This document shows positions 3,234 to 31,315 of a stretch of DNA of 38,884 bases, one piece after another (position 1 is the stretch's first letter; each line of letters begins with the position of its first letter). The stretch is from Actinomycetes bacterium. GTDB taxonomy: Bacteria > Actinomycetota > Actinomycetes > Nanopelagicales > Nanopelagicaceae. The position numbers and the translations under genes were made by a program. A model generated the notes under the pieces. The model was given only the letters and a program-made list of their open reading frames with translations. It was not told where the DNA came from and did no database searches. Location of the stretch: positions 1 through 38,884 of the forward strand of contig JANXZB010000091.1 in the NCBI GenBank assembly GCA_025355765.1, given 5' to 3'.

Positions 3234-4172
3234 GTGCTCAAATCACTCCGCGCCGAGGCCTTCTTAGTCTTCGGAGCAGTGGCTTTTGCCTTCAATGGCG
3301 TTATTTCAAAATTGGTACTTGCAGGTGGACTGTCGGCCTGGCGATTAACTCAGGCTCGGTGCACTGGCGCATTCTTGATCCTTCTTCTATTCGTACTCGC
3401 ACGTAAAGGTGATTCGCTGAAGACCACTCGCCGTGAGTTGCCTTGGCTTGTTGCATACGGAGCGATCGGGTTTGCAGCTGTTCAGGTGGGTTATTTCATT
3501 GCAATCGCACGTATGCCAATCAGCATTGCTCTCATCATCGAATTCACCGCGCCGATTTGGATAGTTCTCTATATCCGCTTCATTCTCAAGCTTCATGTCC
3601 CATCCATGATGTGGCTCTCCCTCGGACTTGGATTCTCTGGTTTGTTGCTCGTGGGGCAAGTTTGGCGTGGGCTCACACTCAATGGAGTTGGCCTGATTGC
3701 CGCCTTTATCGACGCCTTCGCCCTGGCCGCCTATTTTCTTCTCGGGGAAAAATTGGTGGCTCAAAGATCCACGAGCACTTTGACGCTCTGGGGTCTGGGA
3801 ATCGCCTCTTTGGTCTGGGCAATTTTCACTCCTTTATGGAGTTTTCCTACCCAGATATTTAGCCAACACATCAACCTGCAAGGGACATTTAAGAACTACA
3901 CCTTGCCCGGCTGGGTGCTCTTACTCTGGATTATCGTGATGGGCACGATCCTGCCCTACGTCCTTGTCCTCAATGGCCTAAAACTTCTATCGGCGTCGAC
4001 AAGCAGCGTTATCGGAATGCTCGAACCAGTAGTAGCAGGAGGATTTGCCTGGTGGTGGTTGGGTGAAATCTTGACACCAACACAATTGGTGGGAGGCGCA
4101 GTAGTAATTGCGGGGATCATCCTTGCCGATCGTGTTCGCAGACAAGTGCATGTTCCCAAAAACTTGATCTAA
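3234..4172 (+). CDS. EamA/DMT-superfamily transporter
   Basis: Integral membrane protein of 312 residues, mostly hydrophobic, with about ten predicted transmembrane helices arranged as two EamA repeats. The second repeat ends with the typical VIGMLEPVVAGGFAWWWLGE segment. Relatives include RhtA-like amino-acid exporters and many permeases of unknown substrate; nothing here fixes the substrate. The start is GTG at 3234, 14 bases after the acyl-CoA dehydrogenase stop, so co-transcription with that gene is likely. The stop codon overlaps the dnaB stop on the other strand by four bases, leaving no room for a terminator between these convergent genes. Confidence 0.88.
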   Translation: MLKSLRAEAFLVFGAVAFAFNGVISKLVLAGGLSAWRLTQARCTGAFLILLLFVLARKGDSLKTTRRELPWLVAYGAIGFAAVQVGYFIAIARMPISIALIIEFTAPIWIVLYIRFILKLHVPSMMWLSLGLGFSGLLLVGQVWRGLTLNGVGLIAAFIDAFALAAYFLLGEKLVAQRSTSTLTLWGLGIASLVWAIFTPLWSFPTQIFSQHINLQGTFKNYTLPGWVLLLWIIVMGTILPYVLVLNGLKLLSASTSSVIGMLEPVVAGGFAWWWLGEILTPTQLVGGAVVIAGIILADRVRRQVHVPKNLI

Positions 4173-5566
4173 TTATTGTCTCCACGCTGTTGCGTGTAAT
4201 CAGTAGGTGCCGAACTTTGCGGCATGTCGACGAATCGAGCAAAGTGAAGTTGTGCCGACACGGTAATAGTGCGGGTTGGACCGTTACGGTGTTTGGCAAT
4301 AATGAGGTCAGCTTCACCGGATCGGTTCTGACTGTCGTAGAGATCATCGCGGTGTAACAAGATAACGACGTCTGCATCCTGTTCGATCGATCCTGATTCA
4401 CGAAGGTCCGAGAGCATCGGCTTCTTATCCGAACGCTGCTCGGGAGATCGGTTCAACTGTGAGATCGCGATAACAGGAACGTCGAGTTCTTTGGCTAGTA
4501 GCTTCAATTGGCGAGAGAACTCAGATACTTCTTGCTGACGGCTTTCAACGCGCTTTCCACTCGTCATCAACTGCAAATAATCAATAACTATCAGCTTTAA
4601 ATCATGCCTTTGCTTGAGACGTCTCGCCTTTGCCCTGATCTCCATAAGGGAGAGGTTGGGTGAATCATCGATAAAGAGAGGAGCTGCGGAAATCTCGCCC
4701 ATGCGGCGCGCCAAGCGCGACCACTCTTCATCACTGAGGTTTCCTGCACGGATATTGTTCAATCCAACTCGAGCCTCGGCCGACAACATACGCATCGTGA
4801 TTTCAGATCGGCTCATTTCAAGAGAGAAAATCACCGAGGTGTTTCCACCGTGGATGGATGCATAACGGGCGATATCCAGACCAAGAGTTGATTTACCCAC
4901 CGCAGGACGCGCTGCAAGAACAATCATGTTTCCTGGGTGAAGACCGTTGGTCAGAGTGTCGAGATCTTTGAATCCAGTTTTCACTCCTTCTGCGCCGACG
5001 CCCTTTGAGATCGCTTCGATCTCATCAAGTGCTTGTGGAAGCAGGGTGCTCAGTTGCACGTAATCTTCGTTGGCGCGACGTTCGGTTACGGAGTAGACCT
5101 CTGCCTGTGCCTGATCCACGGAATCATCGACATCGCCTTCGGCGCTATATCCGAGTTGGACAATTTTTGTTCCGGCTTCGACTAGACGGCGCATGATTGC
5201 GCGTTCGCGTACGATCTTGGCGTAGTAGCCGGCGTTGGCCGCAGTTGGAACCGATGAGATAAGAGTGTGCAGATATGGGGCGCCACCTGCACGGGCTATC
5301 TCACCCCTCTTCGTGAGTTCGGCAGAGACGGTAACCGCATCAGCGGGTTCGCCGCGGCCGTACAAATCCAAGATCGCGTCATAAATAGTTTCGTGCGCTG
5401 GTCGATAGAAATCGCGCTCGCGGAGAATTTCAATAACATCGGCGATTGCATCTTTACTGAGCAACATTCCGCCGAGAACACTCTGTTCGGCAATCAGGTC
5501 TTGAGGTGGGGTTCGTTCAAACTCGGGTTCGGATCGAGGTCGTTGGGGAAGTTCTGTAATGCTCAC
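4169..5566 (-). CDS. dnaB: Replicative DNA helicase DnaB
   Basis: Hexameric 5'-3' helicase of the replication fork. The N-terminal DnaB domain opens with TPPQDLIAEQSVLGGMLLSKDAIADV. The RecA-like C-terminal domain has Walker A ARPAVGKST with Lys225, the Walker B region LIVIDYLQLM and the DLRESGSIEQDADVVILLHR segment. No intein interrupts the motifs, although inteins are common in DnaB. The start GTG 5566 (VSITELPQ) is chosen because remembered Streptomyces DnaB proteins begin with Met-Ser-Ile and an AAGG-type site lies just upstream; a GTG at 5590 would add eight residues. The gene lies downstream of rplI in many actinobacteria, but here an FAD/GcvT gene and a kinase gene separate them. DciA, the probable loader of DnaB, is encoded at 33545-34015. 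Confidence 0.96.
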   Translation of the reverse strand: MSITELPQRPRSEPEFERTPPQDLIAEQSVLGGMLLSKDAIADVIEILRERDFYRPAHETIYDAILDLYGRGEPADAVTVSAELTKRGEIARAGGAPYLHTLISSVPTAANAGYYAKIVRERAIMRRLVEAGTKIVQLGYSAEGDVDDSVDQAQAEVYSVTERRANEDYVQLSTLLPQALDEIEAISKGVGAEGVKTGFKDLDTLTNGLHPGNMIVLAARPAVGKSTLGLDIARYASIHGGNTSVIFSLEMSRSEITMRMLSAEARVGLNNIRAGNLSDEEWSRLARRMGEISAAPLFIDDSPNLSLMEIRAKARRLKQRHDLKLIVIDYLQLMTSGKRVESRQQEVSEFSRQLKLLAKELDVPVIAISQLNRSPEQRSDKKPMLSDLRESGSIEQDADVVILLHRDDLYDSQNRSGEADLIIAKHRNGPTRTITVSAQLHFARFVDMPQSSAPTDYTQQRGDNN

Positions 5567-5668
5567 ATCCACCACCTTCCCAGCCACCACCGACAGTCAC
5601 CATTGTTATGGCGCGTGGGTGAACGGTAGGCAGTAGCCCGCCAAGACACCAGAAACCACCTCCCGCCC

Positions 5669-5806
5669 TTGTGGATTGCTTGTGGAGAAGACGGGAATAA
5701 CTGCCCTATTCCTGTGTAATGCCCTGTTGATGAATTGTGGATAACCGTTCTTGAATCTCCACGCGTTGGCTAAGAGGGCAGGTCAGCGTCAATTCGCTCA
5801 TCCACA
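5669..5806. promoter_or_regulatory. DnaA-box-like cluster upstream of dnaB
   Basis: The 283-base gap between dnaB and the FAD/GcvT gene holds one exact DnaA box in reverse orientation, TGTGGATAA (5736-5744). It also holds two one-mismatch boxes, TGTGGAGAA (5681-5689) and TCATCCACA (5798-5806), and a weaker one starting at 5669. The gap is upstream of dnaB, so these could be a DnaA-responsive control region or a DnaA titration site. No clear -35/-10 pair or terminator was recognised in the rest of the gap. Confidence 0.5.
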
Positions 5807-5849
5807 GCGTGTGAAGAAAAGTTTATTTCTACATCTCATATATTGATAT

Positions 5850-8297
5850 CTAAGAACGAATTCTCGAACTCGTGGGATCAAAGAGTGGTTCGGCGGCAAT
5901 GACTCCGCTTCTCCAGTCACCGAAGAATTCGACGTCTACCCTCGTTCCAATCCCGCTGTGTTCGATGGGTAGGTAGGCGTATGCGATGGCTTTGTTGATC
6001 GTGTAGCCCTGGCCGCCGCTCTTAACTCTGCCGACGATCTCTTCACCGATTCGAATTGGTTCATTTCCCAGAGGGACTTGCCGAATATCATCGAAGAGAA
6101 TCGGGACGAGCTTCCTTCTAAGATCCTCTTCAGCCTTGAGTAGAAAACTCTTTCCGATAAAAGATTCCTTCTTCAAGGCAACTGCAAAATCAAGCCCGGC
6201 CTCAAAGGGATTTGTCTCGGTGGAAATTTCCACGCCCCATGCCCTGTATCCCTTTTCAAGACGCAGAGATTCAATTGCCCGATAGCCGCAGACTTTCATT
6301 CCGAATTTCTCTCCGGCATCAATCAATGCTCGCCACACGACTTCGCTGTCTGCAACTGGAACATACAGTTCCCAACCAAGTTCGCCGACGTATGTAATTC
6401 TTGTCGCTCGCACAGTCACATTGGCGATCACAATCTCACGCGAATGCATGAAAGGGAAATTTGTATGACTCAAATCGTATGACGTGAGGGCCTGCAAAAT
6501 TTCGCGGGCGCGCGGCCCCCAAATGCCAAAACATGACAGAGTTGAAGTGATATCGGAAATTTCGACTTCAAAGTCATGCTCCCGCCGAATCTTCTCCAAC
6601 CAGCCCATATCGTGAACAAGAAATGCGGTGCCCGTGACGATCATAAACTCGTGTTCAGAAATTTGTGTCACCGTGTAATCGGATTCAATTCCGCCCCGGG
6701 AGTTCAACGCCTGGGTGTAGACCGTACGCCCCATACCTTTAACTACGTCATTGGCACACGCAAAGTTAAGGAATGACGCTGCTTTTTCGCCTTTTACAGT
6801 GATCTTCGCAAAACTCGATTCGTCAAATAATCCGGCACTCTCCCGTGTTGCAAGATGCTCGGCCCTTACCGCGCTAGACCAATGTTTAGCAGCCCAACCG
6901 TAAGGCGCGAACTCATCATTGCTCTCGTTATCTGCGTAATAATTCACTCGCTCCCAACTTGCCTTTTCTCCAAAGACTGCGCTGTGCGATTTGTGCCATT
7001 CATAAACTGGCGACTTCTTCAATGGACGAGCGCTCTTGCGTTCTTCGCCGGGATAGTGAATATCGTAATACTCCTCATAGTTCTCTGTTACGCGTTCGAG
7101 AGTGAATTTGGCAGATTTGTAGGCCTGCCCGAATCGTCGGATATCCATGTGCCAGAGATCCATGGTGGGCTCGCCAGCGACAATCCATTCGGCCACGACC
7201 TTGCCGATTCCGCCTGCTCCTGCGATTCCATGTGCGCAAAATCCTGCCGCGACATAGAAGCCGCCAATCGAAGTTTCACCTAAACAAAATTCGTTATCCG
7301 GAGTAAATCCTTCAGGACCGTTGATAAAATTCTTAACTCCCACTTCGCCCATTTTTGGCACGCGTCGCTGAGAATTCTCGGCGATCTCCTCAAATCGATC
7401 CCACTCCTCTGGTAACAATCTTCCATTGAAGTCGGCCGGAATATTGTCGAGATGTTCGTAATCCGCAGTCCATGCTCTGGAATTGCGTTCATAACCGCCC
7501 ATGAGAAGTCCGCTCACCTCTTGACGGAAATAGATAAGCAAATCCGGGTCCCGAAGCGAGGGAAGATAAGGCGCTCCTGCTGGCAGGAAGTTCTCTGTAA
7601 TCAAGTACTGGTGGCTCATCGGAATGATTGGAATTCGAACATCTACCATTCGCCCGAGTTCGGCAGCAAACATTCCACCACAATTAACGACGATCTCGCA
7701 CTCAATGCTTCCTTTATCTGTTTGGACGTGCGTAACGCGTCCGTCCTTTGTTGTTATTCCAAGAACTCGCGTGTGGGTGAAGATCTGCACCCCGCCGCGC
7801 CTTGCCCCGGAGGCGAGGGCCTGAGCGAGCTGCGAGGGGTCAACCTGACCATCGGATGCCATATAACAGGCCCCCACCACGCCTTCCAGATCCATCAGTG
7901 GGAAGAGATCTTGGGCTTCTTTCGGCGATATTTCCTTCAAATCCAACCCGAATGTCCGAGCCCAACCGATCTGACGACGAATTTCTTCCATGCGTTCAGG
8001 CGATGAGGCAAGTTTGATGCTCCCGCACTCTTTCCAACTAGGAGGAGTCTGCGTTGCCTCCAGTTTTCTGTAGAGGTCTACAGAGTGCATGTTCATTTTC
8101 GTCAAGGTCGGGTCTGCCCGCAATTGCCCCACTAAGCCAGCCGAATGGAATGTTGATCCGCTAGTGAGATCACTTCGATCTAGCAATATGACGTCTTTCT
8201 CGCCAAGTTCGGCCAGATGATAGGCAACCGATGTGCCACCCACTCCGCCACCGATAATGACGATCTTCGCTCTTTCTGGAATTGCTGACGTAGCCAT
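5850..8297 (-). CDS. FAD-dependent dimethylglycine/sarcosine dehydrogenase-like protein with GcvT domain
   Basis: Two-part enzyme of 815 residues. The first half is a DAO-type FAD domain with the dinucleotide motif GGGVGG at 16-21 and His51 in STFHSAGL, the position where dimethylglycine and sarcosine dehydrogenases carry covalent FAD. The second half (about residue 430 on) is an aminomethyltransferase-like GcvT fold with its C-terminal domain. By family knowledge, such proteins oxidatively remove an N-methyl group from dimethylglycine or sarcosine and pass the one-carbon unit to tetrahydrofolate. The exact substrate is not settled by the sequence. The ATG at 8297 lies two bases from the start of the divergent kinase gene. 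A TACATT hexamer on the minus strand (8305-8310) sits close to the ATG, so a leaderless or very short mRNA is possible. Confidence 0.9.
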   Translation of the reverse strand: MATSAIPERAKIVIIGGGVGGTSVAYHLAELGEKDVILLDRSDLTSGSTFHSAGLVGQLRADPTLTKMNMHSVDLYRKLEATQTPPSWKECGSIKLASSPERMEEIRRQIGWARTFGLDLKEISPKEAQDLFPLMDLEGVVGACYMASDGQVDPSQLAQALASGARRGGVQIFTHTRVLGITTKDGRVTHVQTDKGSIECEIVVNCGGMFAAELGRMVDVRIPIIPMSHQYLITENFLPAGAPYLPSLRDPDLLIYFRQEVSGLLMGGYERNSRAWTADYEHLDNIPADFNGRLLPEEWDRFEEIAENSQRRVPKMGEVGVKNFINGPEGFTPDNEFCLGETSIGGFYVAAGFCAHGIAGAGGIGKVVAEWIVAGEPTMDLWHMDIRRFGQAYKSAKFTLERVTENYEEYYDIHYPGEERKSARPLKKSPVYEWHKSHSAVFGEKASWERVNYYADNESNDEFAPYGWAAKHWSSAVRAEHLATRESAGLFDESSFAKITVKGEKAASFLNFACANDVVKGMGRTVYTQALNSRGGIESDYTVTQISEHEFMIVTGTAFLVHDMGWLEKIRREHDFEVEISDITSTLSCFGIWGPRAREILQALTSYDLSHTNFPFMHSREIVIANVTVRATRITYVGELGWELYVPVADSEVVWRALIDAGEKFGMKVCGYRAIESLRLEKGYRAWGVEISTETNPFEAGLDFAVALKKESFIGKSFLLKAEEDLRRKLVPILFDDIRQVPLGNEPIRIGEEIVGRVKSGGQGYTINKAIAYAYLPIEHSGIGTRVDVEFFGDWRSGVIAAEPLFDPTSSRIRS

Positions 8298-30946: not shown

Positions 30947-31315
30947 TTTGAGCGAGATGTCCTTTTTGCGGGTATTTACCCCCAGGGTGTGCAAAAACTG
31001 TGGATAACTGTGGATGAATTCCCTTTCCTTGTGGGTTTAGCTCGTTTTTACAACTTTTAAAGGTTGGGGCAAGGTCTGAAGTTCTTGGTTTTGTCAGAGT
31101 TATCCAGATGAGAAGGCAGGTTATTAACAGGCTAGGAAAGAGGAAACGCTGAGGCGATGAGGGGTTTTACCTCTTTCCCACAGATTCAGGCTCTGGTTAC
31201 TACGACTATATATAACTATTTAAAGGTTGAAGGTGGAGAACTTTATGAAAGACTTGAAAGCACAGGCACCTCTGTTAGAGGTTAGCGAGCGACTAGACGT
31301 TACGAGAGGTGCGGC
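30947..31315. other. Probable origin of replication (oriC), dnaA-dnaN gap
   Basis: This is the longest gene-free stretch in the window (369 bases) and has the position of oriC in most actinobacteria. It contains an exact DnaA box TGTGGATAA (30999-31007), a one-mismatch box TGTGGATGA (31009-31017) and the one-mismatch TTATCCAGA in the opposite orientation (31100-31108). An AT-rich run at 31205-31224 (ctatatataactatttaaa) is a candidate unwinding element. The 11-mer TTTAAAGGTTG occurs twice (31056-31066 and 31219-31229). A short hairpin ACCTCT-GTT-AGAGGT (31268-31282) lies before dnaN. Far fewer boxes are visible than in Streptomyces origins. Confidence 0.82.

Follow-up and report, generated by a model that had tools for sequence, protein, structure and literature searches.

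In a genome of the family Nanopelagicaceae, several boxes for the replication initiator DnaA lie just upstream of dnaB, the gene for the replicative helicase. Do these boxes place the supply of helicase under the control of the initiator, do they serve another role of DnaA, or did they gather by chance? We addressed this question in a stretch of 38,884 nucleotides (hereafter, the window), which is contig C54 of a metagenome bin comprising 1.70 Mb in 138 contigs. The closest named relatives of the window's DnaB come from freshwater actinobacteria, namely SCGC AAA044-N04, Actinobacteria bacterium IMCC25003 and a Candidatus Nanopelagicaceae MAG. Equally close are four MAGs (L061, L065, L066 and L068) that bear the title Bifidobacterium breve; their DnaB is 83-85% identical to that of the freshwater lineage, whereas named Bifidobacterium species share only 57-58% identity with the window lineage, and these titles are apparently wrong.

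DnaA boxes in the gap upstream of dnaB

The likely start of dnaB is the GTG at position 5566 rather than the start at 5590 given in the ORF list, judging from the conserved N-terminus S-I-[A/T]-E-L-P of its relatives. From this end, the non-coding gap extends to the stop codon of a FAD-oxidoreductase/GcvT-like gene (5850-8297; Pfam); the gap length used for box statistics was 259 bp, measured between the listed ORFs. The cluster described in the original prediction is real, with TTATCCACA, TTCTCCACA, TCATCCACA and the weak CAATCCACA all present (Table 1). A single exact box had been counted, which is correct for TTATCCACA, but the perfect actinomycete DnaA box is TT(G/C)TCCACA according to passages of PMC4285127, so that TTCTCCACA is itself a perfect box, and TTCTTCACA had been missed. 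By this consensus, the gap holds two perfect boxes, two one-mismatch boxes and weaker ones in addition.

Table 1. Features of the dnaB locus, with oriC for comparison and a box pair beyond dnaA
Feature	Position	Strand	Remarks
dnaB, replicative helicase	4169-5566	-	Pfam DnaB and DnaB_C
PafBC-like promoter core	5574-5595	-	Ends 7 bases before the likely start codon
Weak box CAATCCACA	5670-5678	-	2 mismatches; in phase (+66)
Box TTCTCCACA	5681-5689	-	Perfect by actinomycete consensus; in phase (+55)
Weak box TCATCAACA	5725-5733	-	2 mismatches; in phase (+11)
Exact box TTATCCACA	5736-5744	-	Taken as phase 0
Conserved non-box element CTGACCTGC	5778-5786	-	Read in the sequence and the genus alignment
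Opposing box TCATCCACA	5798-5806	+	Found in the box scan
Distal box TTCTTCACA	5810-5818	-	One mismatch from TTCTCCACA; in phase (-74)
AT-rich stretch beside distal box	5819-5849	.	Least stable 30-base stretch of the gap
oriC half upstream of dnaA	29341-29520	-	Comparison only; 4 boxes
oriC half between dnaA and dnaN	30999-31240	.	Comparison only; 4 boxes
Box pair beyond dnaA	L334 3923-3954 (G003); L336 3818-3849 (G019); L327 1450-1471 (G067); L328 1537-1558; L330 1437-1458		

Read along the direction of dnaB, the gap contains the AT-rich stretch, TTCTTCACA, the opposing box, CTGACCTGC, the exact TTATCCACA, the weak TCATCAACA, TTCTCCACA, the weak CAATCCACA and, at the start codon, the core TGTCGG-N10-GAAGGT. 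All dnaB-strand boxes of the window's array with up to two mismatches fall at -6.9, 0, 1.0, 5.1 or 6.1 helical turns. The distal position is occupied by TTCTCCACA in many relatives and by TTCTTCACA in the window, and the opposing box recurs at the same place in the two nearest relatives (G112 and G003) and rarely elsewhere. The element CTGACCTGC, situated between the distal and central boxes, is conserved in the genus alignment. If one mismatch is allowed, 36 of 90 family loci have it, compared with 5 of 60 loci across the class, so that it is unsupported as a class-wide element.

The number of boxes in the gap considerably exceeds the background of the window: four are present where 0.16 are expected (TT[A/G/C]TCCACA with up to one mismatch; Poisson P = 2.3e-5), and elsewhere in the window, oriC excepted, any 259-bp stretch contains two at most. 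For TTATCCACA with up to one mismatch, the window as a whole holds 16 occurrences compared with 6.7 expected. Across the genome, one-mismatch boxes occur at background level (197 places, and 190 for a reversed control), and exact boxes are rare, with seven in 1.70 Mb, three of them in oriC and one in the dnaB gap. Among the 100 of the 197 matches that were listed, at least three boxes within 150 bp were found only in the two oriC halves and the dnaB gap; the genome scan proposed with the original prediction therefore revealed no similar cluster outside oriC within this set. A scan of 17 genomes for tandem pairs, using a pattern that misses the window's own dnaB boxes (55 bp apart), recovered 57 pairs compared with 18 for the reversed control. 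By position, 27 were at oriC, four at dnaB, three about 10-13 kb beyond dnaA and 23 elsewhere, the last number being near that of the control.

Two further sets of boxes were observed away from dnaB. A close pair lies about 10 kb beyond dnaA in five of ten fetched stretches, past the right end of the window. In L334, this pair is located between a rhomboid gene and crgA (Pfam), which in M. tuberculosis is Rv0011c. Binding of M. tuberculosis DnaA at Rv0010c-Rv0011c is described in PMC7738170. In addition, an exact box lies upstream of a sigma-70 gene (L006 1501-1509; C79:18307-18315 on its own contig), which looks like the principal sigma factor gene; an exact TTATCCACA or TTGTCCACA box on the opposite strand is kept in 22 of the 26 family loci read (30 returned).

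Conservation, direction and helical phase of the array

A search of the family for dnaB yielded matches in 142 of 151 genomes. For 90 of these, covering 16 of the 17 genera met, the DNA upstream of dnaB was read (30 loci of the first search and 60 fetched stretches); some of the other 52 matches are weak or cut. At least one, two and three boxes were found in 90, 88 and 83 of the 90 loci, respectively, compared with 40, 8 and 0 for the reversed control; the boxes are thus kept in relatives. Their orientation, described at first as mixed, proved to be nearly uniform in the lineage, with 371 boxes along dnaB and 13 opposite. The most frequent type is TTACCCACA (88 of 371), while the exact TTATCCACA and TTCTCCACA account for 23 and 46; most boxes are non-consensus, and their affinity is assumed.

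The spacing of the boxes is equally restricted. Distances of up to 110 bp between boxes of the same direction fall only at 9-12, 20-24, 31-34, 42-45, 52-56, 63-67, 73-77, 86-87, 96-98 and 106-110 bp, that is, near multiples of about 10.7 bp, which corresponds to one face of the helix. When a single locus was taken per genus, R reached 0.84-0.87 for periods of 10.70-10.75 bp, a value attained by none of 2000 random placements in which the span of each array was kept. Due to shared descent, the family loci are less independent than they appear, yet one genus uses other distances than the next and all retain the phase.

Beyond the family, we examined 30 other families of the class, represented by 60 loci (20 of the search and 40 fetched stretches, taken from a larger set of matches). 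At least one, two and three boxes were present in 58, 55 and 45 of these, compared with 21, 5 and 0 for the reversed control; five loci had fewer than two boxes, and two of the five had none. Direction was less uniform than in the family (170:50) and phasing looser (R of 0.70-0.75), although none of 2000 simulations reached it. Of the 102 spacings counted once per family, 85 deviated by no more than 2 bp from a multiple of 10.8; those that did not fit include 13, 60, 70, 90 and 103. In 65 named non-freshwater genomes, which include Streptomyces, Nocardioides, Microbacterium, Bifidobacterium, Glycomyces and others and may overlap the 60-locus set, box density was 10.95 per kb at -500 to -251 from the dnaB match, 3.75 per kb at -250 to -1, 2.04 per kb at -750 to -501 and 0-0.43 per kb in the remaining 250-bp bins. 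In 15 freshwater loci, it was 15.65 per kb at -250 to -1, compared with 0-1.5 per kb elsewhere. For these 80 named loci together, the excess within about 9 kb was limited to the DNA immediately preceding dnaB. Among 25 loci of other classes, boxes were not clearly in excess (19 versus 12 for the control), and two boxes occurred in seven of the 25, some of them suggestive; conservation in the whole phylum is thus unsupported.

The gene beyond the gap varies, being GcvT/FAD-oxidoreductase-like, CorA or rplI in freshwater relatives and MatE in Cellulomonas, according to nine ORFs sent to Pfam, of which five, possibly in wrong frames, had no match. A tie between the array and this neighbouring gene is therefore unsupported. 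Taken together, the array looks to have been inherited within the class Actinomycetes, staying with dnaB as the neighbouring gene changes. For a dnaB region controlled by DnaA as in Mycobacterium, one expects a box excess upstream of dnaB and an arrangement kept across the lineage, and both were found.

Probable regulation of dnaB and alternative roles of the array

Conservation and the published binding in mycobacteria strongly support a DnaA-binding locus tied to dnaB. In M. tuberculosis, five regions were enriched by DnaA in vitro, one of them 'Rv0057 (upstream of dnaB)', and ChIP-seq in M. smegmatis found the homologues of the same five regions; the DnaA mutant I282T binds this site more weakly and is accompanied by lower dnaB expression in mycobacteria (passages of PMC7738170). 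The coupling of dnaB to DnaA that was originally proposed thus stands as far as the binding locus is concerned, while the evidence distinguishes only in part between regulation, titration and a second initiator site. We consider it reasonably likely that the gap regulates dnaB in response to DnaA. Such regulation is probably activating, a sign that rests on the one mycobacterial mutant, and the supply of helicase is probably tied to the start of replication. In mechanistic terms, DnaA molecules would bind the array cooperatively along a single face of the helix, and since most of the array boxes are off-consensus, the array would respond when much active DnaA is present. Expression of dnaB would then be activated and helicase made as replication starts.

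A second input to dnaB may reside at its start codon. The promoter motif of PafBC (RecA-NDp) is TGTC[A/G]G-N10-TAnnnT, and dnaB of M. tuberculosis is classified as partially dependent on PafBC (passages of PMC8151990). Among the 90 family loci, 80 carry TGTC[A/G]G, and 79 of those 80 have nAnnnT at the 10-base spacer, compared with 0-3 loci at the other spacers tested; TAnnnT occurs in only three. The core resembles the PafBC motif and could alternatively be a ribosome-binding site. As a promoter, it may add DNA-damage-driven transcription of dnaB and would yield a near-leaderless transcript; two neighbouring WYL-domain genes on contig C96 of the same genome could be pafBC. A family-wide -10 element between array and gene is unsupported, as TANNNTT was found in 36 of 90 loci and in 31 of 90 after shuffling; within the genus of the window, an alignment of 16 loci shows a conserved TA...TT block in this interval. 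An RNA leader is likewise unsupported: Rfam at gathering thresholds detected only two tRNAs in the window, neither of them near dnaB.

Alternatively, the array might mainly serve to titrate or reset DnaA, being replicated early after initiation owing to its place near oriC, with an outcome like that of datA or DARS and its place at dnaB secondary. The original description of the locus as far from oriC does not hold, given that dnaB lies 24.0 kb from dnaA in the window, or 24 kb of 1.7 Mb. This distance is 20.4-23.5 kb in 15 of 16 single-contig relatives, as titration would have it, and near-origin box clusters of S. coelicolor reportedly lower initiation frequency (Smulczyk-Krawczyszyn 2006). 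However, it is 50.2 kb in the remaining relative (G009), where the array still adjoins dnaB, and elsewhere the array stays with dnaB despite differing neighbours; moreover, a pure sink needs neither fixed phase nor fixed direction. We regard a mainly titrating role as unlikely.

Less probable still is that DnaA represses dnaB, with the array limiting the supply of helicase. DnaA does repress its own gene in several bacteria (passages of PMC8203912), but the weaker-binding mycobacterial mutant has lower, not higher, dnaB expression, and the boxes stop about 75 bp short of the conserved core at the start codon.

A second or auxiliary origin, copied from half an oriC, could in principle account for a DnaA-box cluster phased as in the dnaA-dnaN gap and adjoining one of the least stable 30-base stretches in the window. 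Such instability is reached by only 0.01% of all 30-base stretches in the window, compared with 0.03% for the dnaA-dnaN gap, and the dip in stability persists on average among family and class relatives. Over 50 bases, however, instability is much greater in the dnaA-dnaN gap (0.03% versus 0.27% for the dnaB gap). In the window, the unstable stretch lies on the opposite side of the same-direction boxes from that of the dnaA-dnaN gap, an arrangement that is not that of oriC, and every one of the 23 loci read has two normal, box-bearing halves of oriC around dnaA. GC skew, suggested earlier for placing the origin, has no clear turn at dnaB, although over the 38.9 kb of the window it says little about where replication starts. 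Given the side taken by the AT-rich stretch and the normal oriC around dnaA, we rank a second origin as very improbable.

A chance cluster of degenerate 9-mers, for which one could cite the background frequency of one-mismatch boxes genome-wide, is rejected with near certainty by conservation, direction, phasing and the excess in the gap; coincidence had rightly been considered less likely, although the argument lies in uniform orientation and phasing rather than in mixed orientation.

Significance and comparison with known systems

The array upstream of dnaB, positioned at the level of single boxes, spacing and phase, allows one to ask whether DnaA activity sets the supply of helicase. The phasing found class-wide suggests a basic part of the Actinomycetes replication programme, shared by Streptomyces, Bifidobacterium and freshwater actinobacteria, and the core preceding the start codon may supply dnaB with a further, damage-linked input. 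More speculatively, and with considerable doubt, the region upstream of dnaB might throughout Actinomycetes be an oriC-like sensor: a one-way phased chain of mostly weak boxes, alongside an AT-rich stretch, on which a DnaA filament would form only at high active DnaA, turning on the helicase at initiation, with PafBC adding a damage-induced leaderless transcript. If true, dnaB would be a meeting point of initiation control and the damage response.

DnaA upstream of dnaB was previously known in mycobacteria, as one of five peaks. Within the literature searched, the class-wide conservation, the one-directional phasing and the PafBC-like core at the dnaB start are new; PMC7738170 was the sole report found of DnaA upstream of dnaB in actinobacteria, and as the search mostly did not cover subscription literature, wider conservation may be in print.

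The closest known counterpart is the Rv0057 site of M. tuberculosis with its M. smegmatis homologue, which shares the gene, the DnaA boxes upstream of it and the class Actinomycetes. Binding was measured there and is predicted from sequence here; phasing and class-wide range do not appear in the passages of PMC7738170 on that site. PPE proteins, used as a marker to find a Mycobacterium for direct comparison, gave three weak matches in 12 and singled out no genome. In the distant phylum of Caulobacter crescentus, dnaB is reported to belong to the DnaA regulon and to be DnaA-dependent, and it likewise has predicted boxes upstream (passages of PMC8203912). Compared with actinomycete oriC, represented by the dnaA-dnaN gap, the array upstream of dnaB has the same box types and the same helical phasing, but the boxes of oriC run both ways (74 minus and 54 plus in 23 loci), whereas those upstream of dnaB run one way. 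The near-origin clusters of S. coelicolor and datA and DARS of E. coli are, like the dnaB array, clusters of DnaA boxes outside oriC.
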